NCBI GenBank assembly: GCA_016871055.1
Contig: VFZW01000025.1
Location: 1 to 33,195 of the forward strand
Reading direction: 5' to 3'
Origin: Acidobacteriota bacterium
GTDB lineage: Bacteria; Acidobacteriota; Terriglobia; Bryobacterales; Bryobacteraceae
Length of the DNA stretch: 33,195 nucleotides
Both the position numbers and the translations under genes were made by a program. The notes beneath the pieces were generated by a model that ran no database searches, was not told the origin of the DNA, and was given only the letters and a program-made list of their open reading frames with translations. Shown here in pieces: positions 2,814-26,577 of this stretch; position 1 is the first letter of the stretch; each line of letters starts with the position of its first letter.

Positions 2814-3287
2814 TCAATTCCGCGCTTCATGGCAAAACGTGCAGTCATTGGGCGCCTTCTTGGCGCGGTGACATTCCATGCACGTGCCCATCGCAGTCGA
2901 TACTTCCTTGCGGAGCGTCTCCCGCTCGGCGACCGGACCGTGGCAATCGGCGCAGGTGTTCTTCGCCTCAATGTGGGCCTTGTGCGAGAAGAACACGTAG
3001 CTTGGAATCTGATAGATCCGAATCCAGGGAACCTTTCGCTGCTGTGCGTGGAACTCCGTCAGCTTTGCGATATGCGGCGAGTCCTTCTTCACCGCCGTGT
3101 GGCAGCCCATGCACTTCGCCGTCTCCGGAATACCCATCAATTCGCCAGGATCTTTGTTCTCATGACAGAACTTACACGCCAGTTTCTGATCGCCGGCGTG
3201 GATCTTGTGGCTATACGGAATCGGCTGCCGCGGGGCGATCTGCGCCATCACGCACAGCGCGCCGATTACTAAAACCGCGTTGCGCAT
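2814..3287 (-). CDS. Pentaheme c-type cytochrome, ActA / cytochrome c3-like
   Basis: 157 residues from the ATG at 3287, which shares one base with the stop of the GMC oxidoreductase (TGATG), so translation is coupled. A longer frame upstream only overlaps that gene. Residues 1-18 are a signal peptide. Five CxxCH heme sites are visible at 38-42, 59-63, 112-116, 136-140 and 149-153. Extra histidines (27, 30, 72, 80, 102, 105) include the two SHKxH motifs that usually give the second axial ligand, so bis-His hemes are likely. The spacing and the segment around residues 87-105 resemble the pentaheme subunit of alternative complex III (ActA). As the last gene of the dehydrogenase unit it probably takes electrons from the GMC enzyme into the respiratory chain. 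The function is inferred; the heme count is seen directly. Confidence 0.85.
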   Translation of the reverse strand: MRNAVLVIGALCVMAQIAPRQPIPYSHKIHAGDQKLACKFCHENKDPGELMGIPETAKCMGCHTAVKKDSPHIAKLTEFHAQQRKVPWIRIYQIPSYVFFSHKAHIEAKNTCADCHGPVAERETLRKEVSTAMGTCMECHRAKKAPNDCTFCHEARN

Positions 3288-4870
3288 CAAACGCTGCCCT
3301 TTTTCCGCTGCGCGATCAGGTACTCGCTCGCCCGCATCGTTAGCGCCAGGATCGTCAGTGTGGGGTTCTGCGCGCCGCCCGAGGCGAAGCTCGATCCATC
3401 CAGCACAAACAAATTCTTCACGTCGTGCGCCTGGTTCCACTTATTCAGCACGCTCTTTTTCGGATCGGCGCCCATGCGGCACGTGCCGAGCTCGTGAATG
3501 CTCTCGCCCGGCGGCACCATCTCCCAGTGCTTCGCCAGCACCTCGAATCCAGCGCCCTCCATTGCCGCCGCACCTGTTTCCATCGCGTGTTTGGCCATGT
3601 TGAATTCGTTATCGGTGTACTTCTGCTCGATGTGCAGGCACGGTATGCCCCAGGCGTCTTTCAGCGCCGGATGAATGCTCACCTTGTTCTCGTAGCGCGG
3701 CAGGCCCTCGCCCATGGTGGTCATCGAGAACGCCGCACCCTGTAGATCCGCGAGTTGCTTGACGAGTTGCTCGCCATAGGCCGGAATCAGCTCGGCGTTC
3801 GGCGTGCCGCCGCTGTGGAAGTCGTAGGCGTAACCGCGGATGAAGTTCAGATCGGTGTGCTTTAGATTGGTGAACCGGGGGATGTAGCCAGCGCCGCCCA
3901 TCAACGTGCGCGGGCCTTTGCCGCCGCGCGCTTCGGGCACAATCGCGACCACGGTGTTCTTTACGTAGAACTGATCGAACAGGTAGTGACCCAGTACGCC
4001 GCTCGAATTGGCGAGCCCGTTTGGATGGATCCTCGATCGCGAGTTCAGCATCAACCGCGTCGATTCCAATGTCGACGCGCCCAACATCAGATACTTGGCC
4101 GGGACGCTGAACTCCCGCTTGCTCCGCCGGTCCAGGAAATGAACCGCGTTCACCAGGCCGGTGTTCGAATCGACGCCGATCTCGCGCACGATCGCATTCG
4201 GCACGATCGTTAGATTGCCGGTTGCCAGCGCCTCCGGCAGCAGTAAGTTCACGCTCGACGCGAGCGTACCGGTCGACCGCCGCGGCTTCGACGTCGGCAC
4301 GCCCAACTTGGCCGCCGCCGCCTTAAATCGCTCGATCGAGGTTGAGTCGCGCGAGTCGTCCAAGATCAGCTTGCCGTCGGGCATTTGCGCCCAGCCCTCG
4401 TTGCGGCCCGAGACTTTGAAGATCGGCTCGACGCGATCGTAGAACGGGGAAAGCTCGGCTAGATCCACAGGCCAGTTTTCACCGAAGCCATCGTGGTCTT
4501 TGCACTTGAACTCGTAGTTGGAGAGCCGCCACGACGCGCGTCCCCAACGCAGCGTCTTGCCACCGACCATCCGAATGCGCACCCAATAATACGGATCGTT
4601 CTCCGGATAGGAATACGGGTTTGCCTTCTCGTCGATCCACATGTTGGCGTCGAACTCGGAGGCCTGCGTGATATGCGGAAAACGGCCCGGCTTGTTGAAC
4701 CCGCGATACGGCAACTCGTAGACGGCCTTCAGGGTCTTGTGCCGGTCGAGATCCGCCATCGGGCCGGCTTCGAGCATCAGGCACTTCACGCCCGCTTTGC
4801 ACAAAATATACGCGGCCATTCCGCCCGACGCACCGGAGCCGACGATGACGACATCGTAGTCTTTCGCCAT
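3287..4870 (-). CDS. GMC family FAD-dependent oxidoreductase (gluconate/sugar dehydrogenase-type large subunit)
   Basis: 527 residues from the ATG at 4870, which overlaps the stop of the upstream subunit-3 gene by one base (TAATG). The N-terminus has the FAD-binding [11 protein letters not shown] (residues 8-17) and the ribose-binding Glu34. The C-terminal GMC signature is present: HELGTCRMG with His459, and [17 protein letters not shown] with Asn502, the expected His/Asn catalytic pair. The protein has no signal peptide of its own. In known gluconate, fructose and glucose dehydrogenases the small subunit carries the Tat signal and brings the flavoprotein along, which fits the neighbour here. 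Likely reaction: oxidation of a sugar, sugar acid or polyol in the periplasm; the substrate cannot be read from the sequence. Confidence 0.9.
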
Positions 4871-5433
4871 TAGTCGATCACCTCCCAGTAGGTGTTCACA
4901 CCCGCGCCGCGCCGGCCGCCGGAGGCCTCCGCCCAGGCACGCGAGTTCATCGACGCTCGCAGAATATCGTTCTTCGCGTCGCGCAAGAATTTCGCCAGCA
5001 AATCCTTCGGCGCCGCCCAGGTCCACTTCGCGGTCAACGGCTTCAGGTGTTCGGCCGCCTCGGCCGCGTTCGTGCTTGCGAAGGCCTTGTTGTGCAGCTG
5101 CCGCGCGTTGACGTCGAGTTGGTCGAGCCCTTGACTGTAGAGCACCTGGCGAGCGGTGGGCGATTCCGCCAACAGGAAGTCGAGAAATTCCGGCACGCCC
5201 GCTTCGTTGGCGGAAGGGCGCCCGTTCACCGCGGGCAAGATCGCGCCGCAAAGCCGCGTCAGCGTTTTGAACTGCTGTTCGCTGAAGAACTTCGGTTTTG
5301 CATCGGCGACCGCCTCATGAGTCGAGGTGTCAAGCTTGACATTGTCTTCGGTGCGAGGAGCGTTGGAAGAAGGCGGCGTCTGGGCCGCTACTCCAACGCC
5401 AATCAGACTTCCTAGAGCGCTGCGGCGTTTCAT
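4870..5433 (-). CDS. Gluconate 2-dehydrogenase subunit 3 family protein
   Basis: 187 residues, start at 5433 in an ATGA overlap with the upstream gene. The N-terminus [18 protein letters not shown] is a Tat-like signal, though with only a KRR core. The region from about residue 50 ([19 protein letters not shown]) through [14 protein letters not shown] to the C-terminus matches the subunit-3 family (PF13618), which accompanies GMC dehydrogenases, probably as an export chaperone and structural subunit. Its position directly before the GMC gene with a one-base overlap supports this. The mature protein has no heme or flavin motif, so it is unlikely to be redox active itself. Confidence 0.88.
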
Positions 5434-7073
5434 TTGTTCAAGCTATCACATGGGATGCGCACGAGGACAATATCCTCCATATTCTCCGCATGGATGACAT
5501 AGAGGAATCCGCCGCGCTCGAGCAGCTGCGGGTAGTGATAGCCGCGATAACCCGGTTCTTTGCCGGCGTAGCGATAGATCGTCGGCTCGTCGCGCAGCGT
5601 ATAAATTTTGTCGAATACGATGCCGTCGTCGGAGAGCGATAGCGACAGCGGAATCCGCGTTCCATCGATGTTGGTATTGGATGCCAGCGCATAGCGCCCA
5701 TCGGATAGCCGTAGAACGTTGAACTTGGCCATCGCATCGGGGAAGTTGGTCTTTACCGGCGCCGCGAAGTTGATCGAGCGATAGAGGCGGCGGGATCGCT
5801 CTCCGTCGCGAAAGGCAGTATGAATATCGCCGTTGGCTGCCGTCCACCATTCCGGTTCATCGAGACCCTTCTGTTCGATCGCGATTGCCTTCCAATCGCC
5901 TGGCGACGTCACCCCGCCTCGCAGCATCGACACATTCATTTTGTGGTTTCGTTTCGACATCAGCCAGTCGCCGCTCGCCGTCTTGCGGGGCGGAAAATTG
6001 TTGATCGCATCGCGTGCGATTACGACCGGCGCATCGAACCGCTTGCCGTTCCACTTGTAACCCAATAAAGTGAGTCCCGGGCCGAACAGCGGCCGCACCG
6101 CTTCATCGCGCGCCGCCAGCGCGATCAGCTCGCCATCGCGCACCCAGAACCCGCGCGCGAAGGTTCGATAGCCCTCTTCGCTCGGCGTCAGCGCGCGTGC
6201 CTCCGACCAGCGCTCGCCATCCACGCTTGTCGCATAACGGACGTATTGGCCAGACTGCAAATCGCGAATCCGGTTCGTGCTCCACATCGCCCAAAACCGG
6301 CCCTTGTGCCAGGTGATGTAGGGGTGCATGTTGAAGCCCGTCTTGCCTTCGACGGCCTGGTAGATCACACGCCGCCGGCCCGGCAACTTGCCCGCGTTCC
6401 GCGCCGCGAACATGTTGGTTTCGATAAACCGGTTCGTCGCCCGCGCGACTTCTCCGGGCGCTTCTACTAACAAGGAGTGGCCGGAATTCTTGACCCAATG
6501 CAGAACGATGTTGTCCCGCTCGGGGACTCGCAGTAAAGCCCGCGATGGGCGCTCTCGGCCGCGATCTCCCCAAATCGAAAGCACCGGCAGATGTGTCTCC
6601 GCCAGTATCTTCGACCCGTCCCACTTGCGCCATGCTGTTGCGAACTCCTTCCGCTCGGCGTCGGTCAGCGTGTTCACGATCCGCTCGCGCAGCGCTTCCG
6701 CTCGGGCCGGCCGTGGTCCGGGATCGCCGCCGAACGCCTCGGTCTGTACCAGGTGATGGGTCCATCCTTCCATGGCGATCACGCCCTTCAATCCTTTCGG
6801 ATTGCGTCCGGCGATCTCGATCGCCACCATCCCGCCGATACTATGGCCGCCGATATAGAAGCTCTTTTCGTCGCGGATTTCATGCAGCACATGCGTCGCG
6901 AACGCTTCGACGGTTGGGTTCTTCATGCGCAACGGCAACTCGACCACGCGCACCTTGGCCGTCGAGCGCTTGCGAAACTCGTCGAAGACCTCGGGGCCGT
7001 TGAAGCTCCCCGGAATCAAAACCAGCGTTTGTGCATGAGACGCGACAGCGGCCAATAGCGCAAGGCGTCTCAT
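5430..7073 (-). CDS. Secreted fusion: alpha/beta hydrolase + sialidase-like beta-propeller
   Basis: 547 residues from the ATG at 7073. Residues 1-15 look like a signal peptide ending SHAQ. Residues 16-220 are an alpha/beta hydrolase: nucleophile elbow GGHSIGG with Ser78, likely Asp170 in SIWGD, and His199 in SGHSLLVEAP. Residues 235-547 resemble an exo-sialidase-type propeller: Asp-box-like motifs SVDGERW (283-289) and SDDGIVF (481-487), and the late YHYPQLL segment seen in sialidase-like proteins. The frame is open throughout with no stop at the join, so the fusion is encoded as one protein. A plausible role is removal of an acyl group and then the sugar from a glycan, but neither activity is proven. 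It begins 5 bases after guaB and overlaps the next gene by 4 bases. Confidence 0.8.
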   Translation of the reverse strand: MRRLALLAAVASHAQTLVLIPGSFNGPEVFDEFRKRSTAKVRVVELPLRMKNPTVEAFATHVLHEIRDEKSFYIGGHSIGGMVAIEIAGRNPKGLKGVIAMEGWTHHLVQTEAFGGDPGPRPARAEALRERIVNTLTDAERKEFATAWRKWDGSKILAETHLPVLSIWGDRGRERPSRALLRVPERDNIVLHWVKNSGHSLLVEAPGEVARATNRFIETNMFAARNAGKLPGRRRVIYQAVEGKTGFNMHPYITWHKGRFWAMWSTNRIRDLQSGQYVRYATSVDGERWSEARALTPSEEGYRTFARGFWVRDGELIALAARDEAVRPLFGPGLTLLGYKWNGKRFDAPVVIARDAINNFPPRKTASGDWLMSKRNHKMNVSMLRGGVTSPGDWKAIAIEQKGLDEPEWWTAANGDIHTAFRDGERSRRLYRSINFAAPVKTNFPDAMAKFNVLRLSDGRYALASNTNIDGTRIPLSLSLSDDGIVFDKIYTLRDEPTIYRYAGKEPGYRGYHYPQLLERGGFLYVIHAENMEDIVLVRIPCDSLNK

Positions 7074-15775: not shown

Positions 15776-18143
15776 CTATTTCCGCCGGAAGGCGTCGCTG
15801 AGTACGGCCTTCTCGACGAGATCTCGCAAACCGTCGCCCTTGGCCGAGGCCGCTTTTGCGATGCCGTCGATTGCTGGCGCGTCGATCGCGTCGAACTTGC
15901 GGCCGCAGGCGTAGGTCATAAGGCGGTCCGTTAGAAAGCGCGTGAATGCGGGCTTGCGTTTGGCGATCGTCTCGCGCAGGCCGGCGATGTCGGTGAACTT
16001 TTCGCCGGTTGTCATTTCGCCCGATGCGTCGATGGCGGCGCCATTCGGATACTTCGTGCGCCAGCGGCCGATGGGGTCGAAGTTTTCGAGCGCGAAGCCG
16101 GGCGGATCGATCGAACGATGGCACGACATGCAGGACTCGTTCTCGCGATGTTTTGTCAGCAGATCGCGGACTGATTTTGCGCCGCGCACGTCGGGGTCGA
16201 GCGCGGGCACATCGTCGGGAGGCGGCGAAGGCGGCGTGCCGAGAATGTTCTCCAGCACCCAGATGCCGCGCGTTACCGGCGACGTTTCGATGCCATTCGC
16301 CGACACTGTCAAAATGCTGCCGTGGCCGAGTAGACCGCCGCGGCGGGAATCGGTTAGCGCAACGCGGCGGAATTCGTGCCCGCCGGCGCTAGGCATTCCA
16401 TCCGCAATGCCATAAAGCCGCGCGAGAGGCTTGTTGATGAAGCTGTAGCGCGCGTCGAGGAAGTCGTGCACGCTCTTGTTTTCATCGAGCAGGTGACGCA
16501 TCAGCAAGCGCGTTTCGGTCTTCATCGCGTCCTGCAAGCCGTCGAAGTAGTACGCCGCGAACTGATCGCGTTCGGGCGGCATGTCGCCCAGTGAGCGCAG
16601 GTTCAACCAGGAATCCAGAAAACCGTCGACGAAGGCTTTGGCGCGCGGACTGGCCAACATTCGGCGTGTTTCGGCGCGCAGAATGTCATCGCGCAACAGT
16701 GCGCCCGACGCCGCCTGTTTCAGCAATGCTTCATCAGGCATCGACGACCAAAGGAAATACGACATCCGCGACGCGAGTGCGTACGGATCCAACCGGCTCT
16801 TGTCCTGCGCGGTGGAGATGTACAAAAAAGCCGGCGAACACAATGCCGCTTTCGGCGCGTCTTTTAACGCCACTTCCGCGCCCGCGTCGCGGCGCTTTTC
16901 GACCACGGCCATTAAGCGGTTCACTTCTTCCGGCGTTGCGGGACGGCGATACGCGCGTGAGGCGAAGTTGGCGATGATCTCGCGCGTGCGCTCGGGGGCG
17001 AACGGCCGATCGCCGTAGACGGCGCGCTGGCTGGCGGGAATGACGGGCGCGTTGAGCGGCCCGCGGATTTCGACATGATGAATGCGAATCTGCGGGATCT
17101 TGCCGTACTTCATCATCGCGATGCGGCCGGGCACGATGCCCGCGGCGACGTTGCGCTGATCTTCCGGGAGGAATTCCGGAAAGCGGCGCGCGAACTGCGA
17201 GAACACGCGGCGCACATCGTTCATGCCGTTGGGAAAAATGAAGCGCGGCTGATAGCCCGCGTCGAGGCGCACTTGGAAAGTAAGCCAGTACGGGCCGCCG
17301 TCTTCGAGCACGGTTTCGGCGAGCAGCGGTTGGATCGGCTGTTCATGCTGCAGGTAGCCAACGCGGGCGTTGCCGGCGACGACACCGAAGCGGAACGGCG
17401 CTTCCGGATCGGTGCCAAGCAACTTCGCGTCATATGGATTCTTGCGGTGCAGCGCCTCGACTTGCACCTTTACTTCGTAGACACCGTCGTAGGGAACTCC
17501 TTCGGAAAACGCATGCAGCGGCGCGTAGGCGCCTTCGTAGTGCGGCGTGCGCGGATGCTCGAACAGCGACATGTACTGCGTCAGCTTGTTCGCTCTGCGC
17601 GCGCCGTCGAGCTCCTTTTGCTGCTGAAACTGATCCTTAAAAACCCACGTGCGCGGCGCGGGCGGCGGTTGCGAAGGCAGCGCCTTGGCGACGACGGCTT
17701 CGGCGGCGTCGAGATATTGTTCGAGCAGATAGCCCGAAGTCACCAGCGTTTCGCCGATGTTGTCCATGTGCGTCCATTGCTGATCGCGCGGGAACTTCGA
17801 CGAGGGGTCGAACTGATCCATCGGCATCTGAAACAGGTCGCCGATGGTGTTCAAATACTCGCGGCGGTTCATACGGCGGAGGACGATCTTTTCCGGAGCC
17901 TGTCTTGCGACGTGCGCTAAATACGCTTGCCGCTGCGCGGCGGTTGGCTGTTTCGGTGCGGATTTCGGGGGGCATCGTGCCCGCTTCGACGCGGCGCATG
18001 ATCGCCGCGATGTCGACGTCGCCGCGATCGAAGCGGCGATTGGCCATCTGCACGGTTTCGCCGTGGCATCCAATGCAGTACGTCTTCAGAAAGCCCGCCG
18101 CGTCGTCGGCCGCGGCAAAGGCCAACAACATCACGAAGCTCAT
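15776..18143 (-). CDS. DUF1592-type cytochrome c protein (DUF1587/1595/1592/1588/1585), frameshifted at a C6 tract
   Basis: The gene starts at the ATG at 18143, in an ATGA overlap with the DUF1552 gene. That frame gives a signal peptide (MSFVMLLAFAAA) and heme site CIGCH, then TMPPEIRT, where similarity is lost. The other frame, open to 15776, picks up as PPKSAPKQPTAAQRQAYL and continues with family domains: DUF1587 (RRMNRREYLNTIGDLFQ), DUF1595, DUF1592 (SRMSYFLWSSMPDEALL), DUF1588 with a second heme site CMSCH, and DUF1585. The two frames join at six C residues (plus-strand G run 17967-17972); five would restore one 788-aa protein. Members are large secreted cytochromes of planctomycetes, verrucomicrobia and acidobacteria, usually beside DUF1552 or DUF1501 proteins; the reaction is unknown. 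The frameshift may be real, programmed, or a sequencing error. Confidence 0.85.
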
Positions 18144-19447
18144 ATGCCGCGCAGTGTGCCGGTGGAAAGCGCGAATTTTCGCTGCTCAATGCCGAAGCGT
18201 TGCAGCATGCTGACGAAGAGATTAGACAGCGGCTGCTTGTTTAGGCCGCTGGTTGGGAACGCGTGATACTGGCCGTGTTTGAAGCCGCCGCCCGCGAGGA
18301 CGACCGGCAGATTCAAGTTCGTATGCGCGTTACCGTTGCCCATGCCACTGCCGAACAGCACCATGGTGTGATCGAGCAGCGTGCCGTCGCCGTCGTCGAT
18401 GGACTTGAGCTTGGTCAGGAATCGCGCGAACTGTTCGGACTGGTAGCGTTCGAGTTTCACGAGCATCTCGATCGCCTCCGGCGCTTGGCCGTGGTGCGAG
18501 AGCGCGTGGTACTCCTTGCGAACACCGAGCACGGAGGCCTCGAAGCCGCCCGCGATTTCGAGTGTCGCGATGCGGGTTGAGTCGGTTTGGAGAGCCAGGG
18601 CCATGAGGTCATAAAGCACTGGGATATCATTCACCAGACCGCGGTTTTCGGGCTCCAGCATCGGCGCGTCGGGTTTGGGAACGTTGGCCCACTTCTGGCG
18701 CAGTTCGAGCACCTTTTCGACATCGCGCACCGAAGTGAAGTACTCGTCGAGCTTCTGTCGATCGCGCGCGCCGAGGCGATTTTTGAGCGACTTGGCGTCG
18801 CCGTGTACGGCGTCGAGAATCGATCCTTGTAATTGCAGGCGGTCCTTGGCGGCGGCGAGTCCGGCTTCGCTTTCATTGACGAAGAGCTTGCGGAAGAGTT
18901 CGCGCGGGCCTTGGATTGGATTGACGCGCGTGCCGCTGCGCGTCCAACACATCATGCAGCCGCCGTGCAGGCCTTCTTCGGAACCGAGCGTAAGGGAAGG
19001 GAAGCGTGTCGCGCCGCCGACGGTTTCGGCCGCGCGCTGATCAACGCTGATGTTGCCGTCGGGCATGCCTTTCGCATCCACTTGCCGCACGCCGCTTAGG
19101 AAAGAGTGCACCGCGAAGTGCCCGCCTTTGACGCCGTGATCGAGACCGGAGAAGACGCTGATGTCCTTGCGATGTTCCTTGGCGATTGGTTCGAGCAGAT
19201 GCGGGGTGTCGTAGTTGGCGCCTGCGGTTTGCGGAAAGAACTGTTGTGCGTAGAAACCGAATGCATTACCGATCGCGGCCATGCGCATGGGGCGGACTGT
19301 TTTTGCATTGGCGCTCAGCGCGGTGACGGCGAGTCCGGAACGCACCACGTTCGCGCCAAGGGAATCAAGAATCGGCAGAGCGAGACGGATGCCGGTGGCG
19401 CTCAGAAAGAAGCGGCGTCCGGCGAGATCGGGTCGCGAAGTCGGCAT
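18140..19447 (-). CDS. DUF1552 family secreted protein
   Basis: 435 residues from the ATG at 19447. The N-terminus RPDLAGRRFFLSATGIRLALP is a Tat-type signal. Family features include PMRMAAIGNAFGFYAQQFFP, the SGLDHGVKGGHFAVHSFLSG segment, SLTLGSEEG and the C-terminal MVLFGSGMGNGNAHTNLNLP with VVLAGGGFKHGQYHAF. These are typical of DUF1552 proteins, whose fold is related to alkaline phosphatase/sulfatase-like DUF1501 proteins but whose substrate is unknown. It is followed with a 4-base overlap by the DUF1592-type cytochrome, its regular partner. A TAAGAT box sits 6 bases before the ATG, so the message may be leaderless. Confidence 0.88.
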   Translation of the reverse strand: MPTSRPDLAGRRFFLSATGIRLALPILDSLGANVVRSGLAVTALSANAKTVRPMRMAAIGNAFGFYAQQFFPQTAGANYDTPHLLEPIAKEHRKDISVFSGLDHGVKGGHFAVHSFLSGVRQVDAKGMPDGNISVDQRAAETVGGATRFPSLTLGSEEGLHGGCMMCWTRSGTRVNPIQGPRELFRKLFVNESEAGLAAAKDRLQLQGSILDAVHGDAKSLKNRLGARDRQKLDEYFTSVRDVEKVLELRQKWANVPKPDAPMLEPENRGLVNDIPVLYDLMALALQTDSTRIATLEIAGGFEASVLGVRKEYHALSHHGQAPEAIEMLVKLERYQSEQFARFLTKLKSIDDGDGTLLDHTMVLFGSGMGNGNAHTNLNLPVVLAGGGFKHGQYHAFPTSGLNKQPLSNLFVSMLQRFGIEQRKFALSTGTLRGI

Positions 19448-22563: not shown

Positions 22564-24342
22564 ATGCAACTTTCCGTCGTCGACTGGGTGGTGGTCGCTG
22601 CCTACTTCCTCCTTAACATTGCAATTGGCTACTACTACAAGCAGCGGGCGGGCTCGTCGGTCGACGAGTTCTTCCTGTCCGGGCGTGATGTGCCGTGGTG
22701 GTTGGCGGGCACGTCGATGGTGGCGACCACCTTCGCCGCCGATACGCCGCTGGCCGTAACCGGGATGGTCGCCCGCAATGGCATTGCGGGGAACTGGCTG
22801 TGGTGGAACTTCGTCGCAGGTGGAATGCTGGTTGTGTTTTTCTACGCGCGGCTGTGGCGGCGGTCAGGGGTTATGACCGACATCGAGTTCTCCGAGATCC
22901 GCTACTCGGGCAAGCCAGCCGCGTTTCTTCGTGGGTTTCGGGCCTTGTACTTTGGGATACCTATCAATTGTATCGTGCTGGGCTGGGTTAACCTCGCGAT
23001 GGTCAAGATTTTGATGATGGTCCTCAACGTCGAGAAGACCACTGCTTTAGTAATCGTCATTTTTCTGATAGGCATTACTTCTTGGATCTCGACATTGTCG
23101 GGGTTGTGGGGCGTGCTGGTCACCGACGTCGTGCAGTTCTTCATTAAGATGGCGATGGTGGTGATCCTGGCCTATTGTGCGGTCGACGCCGTTGGCGGCA
23201 TGGACGCGCTGATGGCGAAGCTCGCGGCGGTTGATGCGGCGCGCGGCGCGACGCCCGGCGGCAAGGGATCGCTCCTCGCTTTTGTGCCGGATCTCGATTC
23301 GCCGTGGATGCCGATGATCACGTTTTTGGTCTACATTTCGCTGAACTGGTGGGCGACGTGGTATCCCGGTGCTGAACCCGGCGGCGGCGGATACGTCGCG
23401 CAACGCATGTTCTGTGCCCGCGATGAGAAGCATTCGCTATTGGCGACCCTGTGGTTCAACATCGCGCACTATGCGATTCGCCCCTGGCCGTGGATTCTGA
23501 CCGCGCTGGCGAGCATCGTGCTCTATCCGAATCTCGCCGATCCGGAGACGGGCTACATCAAAGTGATGATCGATCACATGCCGGCGTCGCTGCGCGGGCT
23601 GATGCTCGCGGGTTTCGCGGCGGCGTACATGTCGACCATCGCGACGCAACTCAACTGGGGTGCGAGTTACCTGGTCAACGACTTCTACCGTCGGTTTTGG
23701 AAACCGACGGCGACGGATGCACACTACGTGCTGATTTCGCAGATCGCGACGGTTGCGATTACTCTGATCTCGGCGGGCGTAACGTTCTACATGGACTCGA
23801 TCTCGGGTGCGTGGAAACTGCTCATCGTAACAGGCGCGGGCACCGGTGGTGTGCTGCTGCTGCGTTGGTACTGGTGGCGCGTGAATGCGTGGAGCGAGGT
23901 GGTTGCGATGGCGACAGCGTTTGTTGTGAGCGTCGGACTGCAACTGTTCGCGAAGTTGGATTCCGACAAGCCCGAGGAGTTCGCGTGGCTGATGATTATC
24001 ACGGTCGGAGTGACGACGGTGGCGTGGCTGGCGGCGACGTTCCTGACGCCGGCCGAGCCTCGTGAGACGCTCATTGCGTTCTACAAACGGACGCGGCCGG
24101 CGAGCGGTTGGGGCCCGATCGCGGCGTTGGCGCCGGAGGTGAAACCCGCCAGCGATGGATTGAGCAATCTGGCGTGTTGGGTCGCCGGCTGCGTGATGAT
24201 CTACATGGCGCTATTCGGGCTTGGCAAGGTGCTGTTGAAGGACACGATGATGGGCGCCGGCATGCTGGCGCTGGCGGCCGCGGCTGGAGCGTTTATCTAT
24301 TACGACTTGAACAAGCGCGGTTGGACTTCGATTTCAGAGTAG
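22564..24342 (+). CDS. Sodium:solute symporter (SSS family)
   Basis: 592 residues with about 13 predicted membrane segments. The N-terminal VDWVVVAAYFLLNIAIGYYY, then DEFFLSGRDVPWWLAGTSMVATTFAADTPLAVTGM, is the SSS family core around helix 1-2, where the sodium and substrate sites lie. The fold is LeuT-like and uses the sodium gradient to import sugars, organic acids or amino acids. Substrate cannot be told. A Trp-rich segment (SLNWWATWYPGAEPGGGGYVAQRMF) precedes a membrane helix, as in sugar-transporting members. The gene is divergent from a secreted propeller protein. Its end overlaps the convergent PIN-domain gene by 9 bases. Confidence 0.92.
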   Translation: MQLSVVDWVVVAAYFLLNIAIGYYYKQRAGSSVDEFFLSGRDVPWWLAGTSMVATTFAADTPLAVTGMVARNGIAGNWLWWNFVAGGMLVVFFYARLWRRSGVMTDIEFSEIRYSGKPAAFLRGFRALYFGIPINCIVLGWVNLAMVKILMMVLNVEKTTALVIVIFLIGITSWISTLSGLWGVLVTDVVQFFIKMAMVVILAYCAVDAVGGMDALMAKLAAVDAARGATPGGKGSLLAFVPDLDSPWMPMITFLVYISLNWWATWYPGAEPGGGGYVAQRMFCARDEKHSLLATLWFNIAHYAIRPWPWILTALASIVLYPNLADPETGYIKVMIDHMPASLRGLMLAGFAAAYMSTIATQLNWGASYLVNDFYRRFWKPTATDAHYVLISQIATVAITLISAGVTFYMDSISGAWKLLIVTGAGTGGVLLLRWYWWRVNAWSEVVAMATAFVVSVGLQLFAKLDSDKPEEFAWLMIITVGVTTVAWLAATFLTPAEPRETLIAFYKRTRPASGWGPIAALAPEVKPASDGLSNLACWVAGCVMIYMALFGLGKVLLKDTMMGAGMLALAAAAGAFIYYDLNKRGWTSISE

Positions 24343-24792
24343 GTCTGGGAGACTTTTCGCTTCGACGAGCTTCGTGAAGTGCCGCGGGTTCGTGGTTGCG
24401 ACGACAAGTTCCTCTGCGGGCGCTCCGAACGTGAGCACCTGCGCGGCGAGGATGATGTCGGCGTCGATGTTTCGTGAGCCGGCGGTCGGTTCGCCGGCTT
24501 GTCGCTTCATTGCCCACAATTCCGCGGCGAGGCGCAGGGCGGTATCGGTGAGCGGGACGTAGCGGTTGTGTCCTTGCGCGATAAAACCGTCGAGCCGTGC
24601 GATACTGCGCGTCTTTCCCGCGCGCAAGAACTCACGCTTGATTTCGTAATAAATGATTGCCGGTACGTGGAACTGCACGCCTTGGTGGGATAACTCCTCG
24701 ATTCGTTCCATAACGGCTTCCACCTCGGGACTTGGCGTTGGATTCACGAGCAGGCCCAGCGGCCCGGAATCGAGAAAAATGTATTTACTCAC
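24334..24792 (-). CDS. PIN-domain ribonuclease (VapC-like toxin)
   Basis: 152 residues from the ATG at 24792, in an ATGA overlap with the preceding small gene. The PIN-domain acidic set is visible: Asp8 in FLDSGPLG, Glu50 in IIYYEIKRE, and Asp110/Asp112 in NIDADIILAAQ. A TTNPRHF motif close to the end is also common in PIN toxins. VapC toxins cut tRNA or rRNA until bound by their antitoxin. The preceding gene encodes a small charged protein of antitoxin size and layout. The family is secure; toxin activity is inferred. Confidence 0.88.
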   Translation of the reverse strand: MSKYIFLDSGPLGLLVNPTPSPEVEAVMERIEELSHQGVQFHVPAIIYYEIKREFLRAGKTRSIARLDGFIAQGHNRYVPLTDTALRLAAELWAMKRQAGEPTAGSRNIDADIILAAQVLTFGAPAEELVVATTNPRHFTKLVEAKSLPDLL

Positions 24793-25080: not shown

Positions 25081-26577
25081 ATGCTCTCCCGCCGAGGCTT
25101 TATCGCCTCCACCGCGCTGGCCGCTCAACCAAAACGAAAACCGAACTTTTTGTTTTTGATCTCCGACGACCACGCCGGCTACGTCCTCGGTTGTGATGGC
25201 AACACGAAAGTCTCGACGCCGAACATCGACCGGCTTGCCGGCGAGGGCGTCCGCTTCGCGCGCCACTACTGCAACTCGCCCGTTTGCACGCCTTCGCGGC
25301 AGAGTCTTCTCACCGGCCAGATGCCGGTGGCCGCCGGCGTCACGGTGTTGAGCACTTCTCTCGATCCCGGCAAGCCGACGCTCGCCAAGCAGTTCAAAGG
25401 CGCCGGTTATCGCACCGCCGTGTTCGGCAAGATGCATCTCAACAGGCCGAGTGCGCCGGGCCTCTACGGTTTCGATGAAATGATGACCGAGCAAGACATC
25501 GCCAAGGCCTGGGGCGTGGCGCCGGTTACCAAACCCGCGCCGGCCAATCAGCCCGTCAAACCGCGATGGCAGCCGTTCCGCGTGCACGCTCGAACGTGGC
25601 TCAACGCCGAAAAACTTCCCTTTCCACGCTACTACGAAGAGATGCGGGGCACCTTTACCGCCAATCGTGCGATCGACTGGCTGAACAAACACAGGGACGA
25701 CGCCGAACCGTTCGCGTTGTGGGTGAGCTTCCCCGATCCCCATTCGCCGTACGACTTCCCTGTCGACATGAAAGACCGCAACGACGCCAAGACCTTCGAC
25801 GTTCCCAAGGTCGGCCCCGAAGACGCCTGGCAGGTGCCCAATATTTTTCGGGATCTCACGCACGAAGAGAAACAAGGCATCGCCGCGGCCTACTACACCA
25901 GCGTCTCGATGGTCGATCGCAACATCGGCGATGTGCTGAACGCGCTCGACAAACTTGGTCTGGCGGAGAACACGTGCGTCGTCTACATGGCCGATCACGG
26001 CTACTGCCTCGGCCAGCATGGCCGATTCGAAAAGCACTGCGGCTACGAACCCGCGCTACGCGTGCCGCTGGTCATGCGGTATCCGAATCGCATCCGCAAG
26101 GGCGCTGTCGTGCGCGAGTTCACCGAACACATCGACGTGCCGGCGACGATTACCGATGTCATGGGCCTTGGCAAATTGCCGGTCGAGCATGGCGCATCGC
26201 TCAAACCGTACCTCGAAGGCAAGAAGCCGAAGAGTCCGCGCAAACGGATCTTCAGTCAGTATCTGGAAAACGAAGAAGCCTTCGCCGCCGACGACCGGTG
26301 GAAGTTCATCTTTGGCAGCGGCAAGCGGAAACGCACCGACGGCTACGAGACCGATAACCCAACACCGGGACGTTATGTTCGACTGTTCGACAAGAAGAAC
26401 GATCCGGGCGAGTTCGTCGATGTAACCGCGAAGTACCCTGAAGTAGTGAAGGCCATGCAAGAAGAGATCCTCGCGCGCTTCCGAAGCGTTCATCCCGACA
26501 CCGCCGCCGAACCGAAGCACCTGCCCGCACCGGAGGCGATCGAATACTACGTTCGCCCGCGCGACGCCGCGAAATGA
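25081..26577 (+). CDS. Secreted Cys-type sulfatase (alkaline phosphatase superfamily)
   Basis: 498 residues from the ATG at 25081. The N-terminus has a Tat-like signal (SRRGFIASTALAA), then the metal site NFLFLISDDH (Asp29/Asp30). The sulfatase signature CTPSRQSLLTGQ contains Cys69, which a formylglycine-generating enzyme would convert to the catalytic aldehyde. Further metal and substrate residues follow in FPDPHSPYDFP and VYMADHGYCLGQHG. The sequence resembles iduronate/heparan N-sulfatase or choline sulfatase-like members; the true substrate, a sulfated glycan or small ester, cannot be told. The maturation enzyme is not in the window. The stop overlaps the next gene as ATGA, so the two are translationally coupled. 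Confidence 0.92.
   Translation: MLSRRGFIASTALAAQPKRKPNFLFLISDDHAGYVLGCDGNTKVSTPNIDRLAGEGVRFARHYCNSPVCTPSRQSLLTGQMPVAAGVTVLSTSLDPGKPTLAKQFKGAGYRTAVFGKMHLNRPSAPGLYGFDEMMTEQDIAKAWGVAPVTKPAPANQPVKPRWQPFRVHARTWLNAEKLPFPRYYEEMRGTFTANRAIDWLNKHRDDAEPFALWVSFPDPHSPYDFPVDMKDRNDAKTFDVPKVGPEDAWQVPNIFRDLTHEEKQGIAAAYYTSVSMVDRNIGDVLNALDKLGLAENTCVVYMADHGYCLGQHGRFEKHCGYEPALRVPLVMRYPNRIRKGAVVREFTEHIDVPATITDVMGLGKLPVEHGASLKPYLEGKKPKSPRKRIFSQYLENEEAFAADDRWKFIFGSGKRKRTDGYETDNPTPGRYVRLFDKKNDPGEFVDVTAKYPEVVKAMQEEILARFRSVHPDTAAEPKHLPAPEAIEYYVRPRDAAK

Follow-up and report, generated by a model that had tools for sequence, protein, structure and literature searches.

The window, the whole stretch of 33,195 nucleotides that was analysed, carries on its minus strand a gene in which an alpha/beta hydrolase is fused to a sialidase-fold propeller (Table 1). 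The gene runs from ATG to stop through 547 codons without an internal stop. Pfam recognised Abhydrolase_6 at residues 17-212 of the protein (30.7 bits, cut-off 26.3) and BNR_2 at residues 255-525 (62.5 bits, cut-off 31.4), and AlphaFold2 modelled the entire protein with a mean pLDDT of 79.9 (ten alignment rows). Signal-like N-termini, read by eye, suggest that the fusion protein is probably exported or secreted.

Table 1. The fusion gene, its parts and its neighbours, with positions in the window
Feature	Position	Strand	Evidence or remark
Complete fusion gene (alpha/beta hydrolase, then sialidase-fold propeller), 547 aa	5430..7073	minus	Frame and Pfam
Signal-peptide-like N-terminus, residues 1-15	7029..7073	minus	Judged by eye; pLDDT low there in both models
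Alpha/beta hydrolase domain, residues 17-212	6438..7025	minus	Pfam, triad alignment, model, structure comparison
Ser78 codon	6840-6842	minus	Hydrolase triad
Asp170 codon	6564-6566	minus	Hydrolase triad
His199 codon	6477-6479	minus	Hydrolase triad
Linker, residues ~221-232	6378..6413	minus	Lowest inter-domain model confidence; variable in A1
Sialidase-fold propeller (A type), residues 233-547	5433..6377	minus	Pfam, model, structure comparison, tree
Residues 248-271: Asn248 (RIP-arginine place), Ser265 (acid/base place), Asp271	6261..6332	minus	Motif counting
Residues 406-422: Glu406 (putative nucleophile partner), Arg422 (second arginine)	5808..5858	minus	HMMER, hhalign, conservation
Arg473 (third arginine)	5655..5657	minus	hhalign, conservation
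Tyr514 (would-be nucleophile)	5532..5534	minus	hhalign, conservation
Gluconate_2-dh3 family gene	4870..5433	minus	ATG overlaps fusion-gene stop by 4 bases (ATGA)
GMC oxidoreductase gene	3287..4870	minus	Same direction, next after Gluconate_2-dh3

The overlap of start and stop codons indicates that the Gluconate_2-dh3 gene and the fusion gene probably belong to one operon in the window genome. Using tblastn, no homologue of the Gluconate_2-dh3 or GMC genes was detected at the 13 other fusion loci, nor at L057 and L058, and the two genes were therefore rejected as general partners of the fusion. One of the loci, L033, is uninformative in this respect, as its contig ends before the place where these genes would lie.

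Integrity and recurrence of the fusion

The hydrolase-propeller fusion is genuine and is conserved across relatives. The earlier note had described a single continuous frame holding both halves, and the open frame, the Pfam matches, the models and the recurrence of the gene agree with this. The window genome is fragmented (713 contigs), as would be noted in favour of an assembly or sequencing artefact. Such an origin is nevertheless hardly conceivable and was rejected, since the identical join is repeated in 13 further genomes, contains no stop and is surrounded by few amino-acid changes. We also looked for the missed stop or sequencing error at the join against which the earlier note had warned; none was found, and the join is intact in relatives.

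Over the 375 codons compared with L033, 363 residues were identical (approximately 97%), with a dN of 0.016 and a dS of 0.137. The values were 0.023 and 0.124 for the hydrolase, 0.009 and 0.183 for the propeller portion, and 0.024 and 0.078 for the 56 codons of the join, which held just 6 base differences. The propeller was thus more strongly constrained than the hydrolase. As dN was far lower than dS on either side of the join, and the same frame occurred in 14 genomes, the fusion is beyond chance.

Propellers related to that of the window protein fell into two types, A (the type fused in the window) and B. The family searches scored only the best candidates of each genome (up to 13 for the hydrolase, 8 for the B propeller and 5 for the FAD oxidoreductase described below), so all counts from them are lower bounds. 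The hydrolase domain was found in at least 19 of the 237 family genomes (E 1e-15 or better), with arrangements assigned by open frame and context. It was fused to an A propeller in at least 12 of them (G000, G192, G069, G612, G088, G614, G164, G195, G172, G185, G197 and G026). The G192 copy stops with its contig after residue 375 and retains the join. G612 and G614 are the loci L034 and L037 by contig coordinates. In the remaining genomes, the hydrolase either had a B propeller as its fusion partner (G054) or was joined to an FAD oxidoreductase, the gene after it encoding a B propeller (G132). It was located beside an FAD oxidoreductase in G002, was cut by a contig end in G103 and had none of these partners nearby in G023, G118 and G066 (3 of 19). 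A further 396 genomes drawn from the phylum yielded one more fusion genome, from another family (G261). The earlier note had proposed a search for the same architecture elsewhere, and the total now stands at a minimum of 14 genomes including the window genome, at least 13 of which are among the 237.

A scan of genome contigs recovered 13 loci, their labels including Acidobacteria, Bryobacterales, Bryobacteraceae and, in one case, Candidatus Sulfopaludibacter. Eight of these loci contained the complete fusion (L034-L041). In L033 the join was present in a cut copy, and L042 consisted of a propeller end only, at a contig edge. L043 was an Acidobacteria hydrolase without a propeller, and L044 and L045 were hydrolases in Hydrogenedentes.

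In a tree of 37 propellers, built with a quick method and including some long branches, the 12 A types formed one clade (SH-aLRT 99), separate from the B types and from four RIP proteins. All 12 full-length A-type propellers in the tree were fused to a hydrolase. Separate genes for the two halves, which the earlier note had seen as telling against its reading, thus exist for the hydrolase, found also alone or with the FAD oxidoreductase, but not for the full-length A propellers of the tree. In the hydrolase tree, the fused hydrolase of L053 shared a group (support 98) with two others, one of them fused to FAD and one standing alone. The hydrolase tree does not cleanly follow the propeller, and this points to swapping or loss.

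Partner modules in related genomes

Four modules, namely the hydrolase, the A and B propellers and an FAD oxidoreductase (PF12831), reappear in many combinations, either fused or as neighbours. Besides the hydrolase-A order of the window and others, we found hydrolase-A-B followed by FAD (L050), hydrolase-B followed by FAD (L054), hydrolase-FAD followed by B (L058), a B-FAD fusion converging on hydrolase-A (L034) and B-B followed by FAD (L064 and L065). The paired B propellers of L062 and of L063 were in separate or broken frames. Hydrolase-A was preceded by an extra N-terminal domain in L047 (6690-7559) and L049 (6696-7565). This domain is about 290 aa long and possesses a GFSRG motif; for the L047 copy, Pfam gave nothing at E 0.1, and a sequence search of the PDB yielded no convincing relative.

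B propellers were found in at least 27 of the 237 genomes, at 28 or more loci (E 1e-60 or better), after the removal of 11 A-type rows. A close FAD oxidoreductase was present on the same contig and strand at no fewer than 19 of the 28 loci, with gaps of up to 135 bases in 18 of them and of 890 in one. Conversely, 18 of the best 20 FAD matches adjoin a B propeller. Among the nine B loci without an FAD match, at least two were cut by contig ends (G616 and G177), and another is L002, from the window genome, in which the FAD part is adjacent but broken by stops. Of the 12 family genomes that carry the A fusion, at least 11 also had a B propeller, whereas among the remaining 225 genomes the number was at least 16 (Fisher p 5.6e-11, kinship ignored). 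Although the FAD oxidoreductase is a partner module in relatives, it is neither fused to nor adjoining the fusion gene of the window.

The B-propeller-FAD gene of the window genome itself (L002 1-2493; contig C10, propeller at approximately 23769-24758) is broken, with one TAG and one TAA within the propeller match. These stops may reflect a pseudogene or assembly errors.

Homologues of a sulfatase encoded in the window (25081-26577) were located directly upstream of three B-B-FAD sets (L063 4527-5966, L064 6464-7567 and L065 2305-3741), a hint that the glycan is sulfated and not pectic. Pfam confirmed the sulfatase identity for L064 and for the window copy, which is far from the fusion gene.

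Folds and putative active-site residues

Modelled by itself, the hydrolase reached a mean pLDDT of 90.0 (thirteen alignment rows). The model resembled many serine esterases, among them the type-A feruloyl esterase of Alistipes shahii (7dq9; Z 21.8, rmsd 2.9, 201 aligned residues, many ties), and these shared its fold with Z values of about 20-22. Identity to them was 10-23% in the rows listed, and the substrate cannot be read from this likeness. The Ser78/Asp170/His199 set, which the earlier note had called apparently intact, is conserved: across the 13 hydrolase domains that were aligned, neither Ser78 nor His199 varies, and residue 170 is Asp in 11 and Glu in 2. By Pfam, the alignment and the model, the hydrolase has both the fold and the Ser-acid-His triad of a serine esterase.

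Within residues 1-60 (about 6894-7073), the window protein and that of L033 are without the first strands and the GHG loop of most orthologues.

The sialidase-like propeller proposed in the earlier note was recovered as a BNR_2 match and, on the predicted model, as a likeness to sialidases (1eut Z 30.7, rmsd 2.6, 300 aligned residues). The model looked six-bladed by strand count and aligned over nearly its full length with six-bladed sialidases, as expected of the GH33 fold. The Foldseek matches also included propeller lectins of Photorhabdus, and 5mqr was sixth in the Foldseek list, yet outside the 50 VIA rows listed. Both of the Asp-box-like motifs claimed previously are present, read by eye, and both are non-canonical (283-289 SVDGERW and 481-487 SDDGIVF). 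Several orthologues possess an extra Asp box (SxDGGxxW) at a gap in the window protein. NCBIfam gave no match to the propellers.

The roles of a tyrosine, a glutamate, an aspartate and three arginines in sialidases are described in passages of PMC4747158 and PMC6811678. We counted conservation at the corresponding positions in 30 full-length A and B propellers, the set that remained of 39 rows after 3 duplicates and 6 short sequences were removed. Glu406, Arg422, Arg473, Tyr514, Glu324 and Ser265 were kept in all 30, and Asn248 in 28, the other two having Ala or Ser. Residue 271 was Asp in 12 and Glu in 18.

With HMMER, the propeller profile aligned its LDEPEW-AFRDG segment with MDENKT-NSRDS of 1eur, where Glu406 and Arg422 match Glu260 and Arg276. 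A profile comparison of the propellers with the four RIP proteins (hhalign; probability 95%, E 3.1e-8 for one comparison) set Glu406, Arg422, Arg473 and Tyr514 on their Glu, arginines and Tyr. The same alignment placed the first blade of the propeller onto the second sialidase blade and left the RIP-containing blade unaligned. Because of this misplacement, the RIP and acid/base positions were taken from gap-free counting between the RIP motif and the first Asp box, together with the start of the structural alignment. By this count Asn248 takes the place of the RIP arginine and Ser265 that of the acid/base residue, with Asp271 six residues further on. The acid/base place is Asp in three of the four RIP proteins and Glu in the other.

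Judged on sequence only, Tyr514 and Glu406 would supply the Glu-activated tyrosine nucleophile of GH33. Of the three arginines that bind the carboxylate, Arg422 and Arg473 are present and the RIP arginine is replaced by Asn248. The Asp acid/base is likewise replaced, by Ser265, though another residue may serve. The propeller thus differs from a standard sialidase. It shares the fold, the Glu-Tyr pair and the second and third arginines with the GH33 exo-sialidases (1eut and others), but departs from them at the first arginine and the acid/base aspartate.

Among proteins of solved structure, the closest in sequence to the propeller was BT_1020 of Bacteroides thetaiotaomicron (5mqr, 5mqs), with E values of 3.2e-6 for the window protein and 2.9e-16 for a B propeller. 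The joint profile matched 5mqr at 2e-25 and true sialidases at 6e-5 and weaker. BT_1020 appears in a passage of PMC7263609 as a GH142 beta-L-arabinofuranosidase. The GH143 Dha hydrolase, according to parts of PMC6811678, keeps the Tyr-Glu pair, and the family contains a bi-modular Bacteroides protein; its propeller is described there as five-fold, whereas that of the window protein looks six-bladed in the model. Like the window protein, BT_1020 is a polypeptide of two enzymes, but the partner of its propeller is an (alpha/alpha)6 glycosidase (the GH142 domain) behind it, and that of the window propeller is an alpha/beta hydrolase in front. From these two papers we take the BT_1020 propeller to be the GH143 Dha hydrolase. 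Dha is a sialic-acid-like sugar.

Both propellers have Asn at the RIP place, and the Arg and Tyr of their last blades align. Counted on the printed alignment, the BT_1020 residues at the acid/base and Asp271 places are Leu and Glu, respectively. Judged on sequence, the window propeller also has the Tyr-Glu nucleophile pair of GH143. The window propeller scored 13.4-14.5 bits with PF24067, below the cut-off of 27. The B-propeller-bearing L050 passed with 37.9 bits, and 11 of 16 propellers matched at E <=0.01.

Possible function of the fusion protein

We suggest that the fusion gene encodes a secreted esterase joined to a Tyr-nucleophile glycosidase for a carboxylated, ulosonic-type sugar, its modules being allied in relatives to the FAD oxidoreductase. 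We give this reading a probability of roughly 0.45. The protein would be exported by way of its signal-like N-terminus. The Ser78-Asp170-His199 hydrolase would most likely remove an ester (an acyl group or a methyl ester) from a glycan. The propeller, most likely an active retaining glycosidase, would then attack the sugar through Tyr514, activated by Glu406, with Arg422 and Arg473 holding the sugar carboxylate. Asp271 is proposed as the replacement acid catalyst, based on position counting. The substrate would be a carboxylated sugar of ulosonic type, such as Kdo, Dha or one akin to them, and not an ordinary sialic acid, and in relatives the FAD oxidoreductase probably acts on the same glycan or on the released sugar. 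Against this proposal stand the absence of the two canonical sialidase sites, the PF24067 score below the cut-off, the five-fold propeller described for GH143 beside a model that looks six-bladed, and a fused hydrolase that does not track the propeller in the tree.

The changed RIP-arginine and acid/base places would also be consistent with a propeller that is no longer catalytic and instead binds sugar, thereby directing the esterase to acidic glycans, and the Photorhabdus lectins among the structural matches fit such a role. We consider this rather unlikely, as Glu406, Tyr514, Arg422 and Arg473 are kept in 30 of 30 propellers and, over the 375 codons, the propeller has been more tightly constrained than the hydrolase. 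The removal of acylated sialic acid in two steps, a strict form of the idea in the earlier note, is not the reading that we favour. An esterase acting with a true sialidase on O-acylated sialic acids would account for the sialidase fold and for the retained Glu, Tyr and two arginines. It is made very unlikely by the Asn that replaces the first arginine (28 of 30) and the Ser at the acid/base place (30 of 30), and by the fact that the nearest solved sequence is BT_1020 and not a RIP-type sialidase. The window genome, moreover, separately encodes at least four sialidase-like proteins with a true RIP motif (L088, L090, L091 and L092).

The relationship to BT_1020, with which the Asn at the RIP place is shared, raises the alternative that the propeller, like GH143, cleaves Dha (or Kdo) from the rhamnogalacturonan II of plants, the hydrolase removing acetyl or methyl esters of this pectin. 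GH106 is one marker of rhamnogalacturonan II use. It was absent from the window genome and was found in 7 of the 14 module-bearing genomes; of the 12 A-fusion genomes in the family, just 5 had it. The absence of this one marker makes pectin-derived Dha a less likely substrate, and the neighbour at three B-propeller loci is a sulfatase homologue instead. We regard pectic Dha as an improbable substrate, and prefer the esterase and ulosonic-type glycosidase described above.

More speculatively, the modules may constitute a new extracellular system of Acidobacteriota, made up of an esterase, one or two GH143-like propellers with a relocated acid (Asp271 or Glu) and the FAD oxidoreductase. Through shuffled fusions and operons, this system would release a carboxylated, ester-bearing sugar from some as yet unrecognised glycan of the environment and oxidise it, and the A propeller would merit a GH family or subfamily of its own. 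This broader proposal is tentative and, if anything, doubtful. If the proposed function is right, it would provide a defined target for identifying the sialic-acid-like sugars on which Acidobacteria of soils and lakes feed. It would also link a glycosidase to an FAD oxidoreductase family about which little is understood, and offer a clean test of catalysis in a sialidase fold that lacks its first arginine and its customary acid.

Both folds are already known. The open-licence literature that we searched yielded no publication on the hydrolase-propeller pairing, its exchange with PF12831 or the changed active site. A title cited in PMC12856340 refers to one protein with sialidase and esterase activity, a likeness to the window protein that we draw from the title itself.

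With 25 BNR_2 matches (loci L087-L111), the window genome holds a sizeable stock of sialidase-fold proteins for one free-living Acidobacterium. Elsewhere in the window, a PSD/PSCyt gene (DUF1592, 1588, 1587, 1585 and 1595) adjoins a DUF1552 (HXXSHH) gene on the same strand, at 15776-19447.
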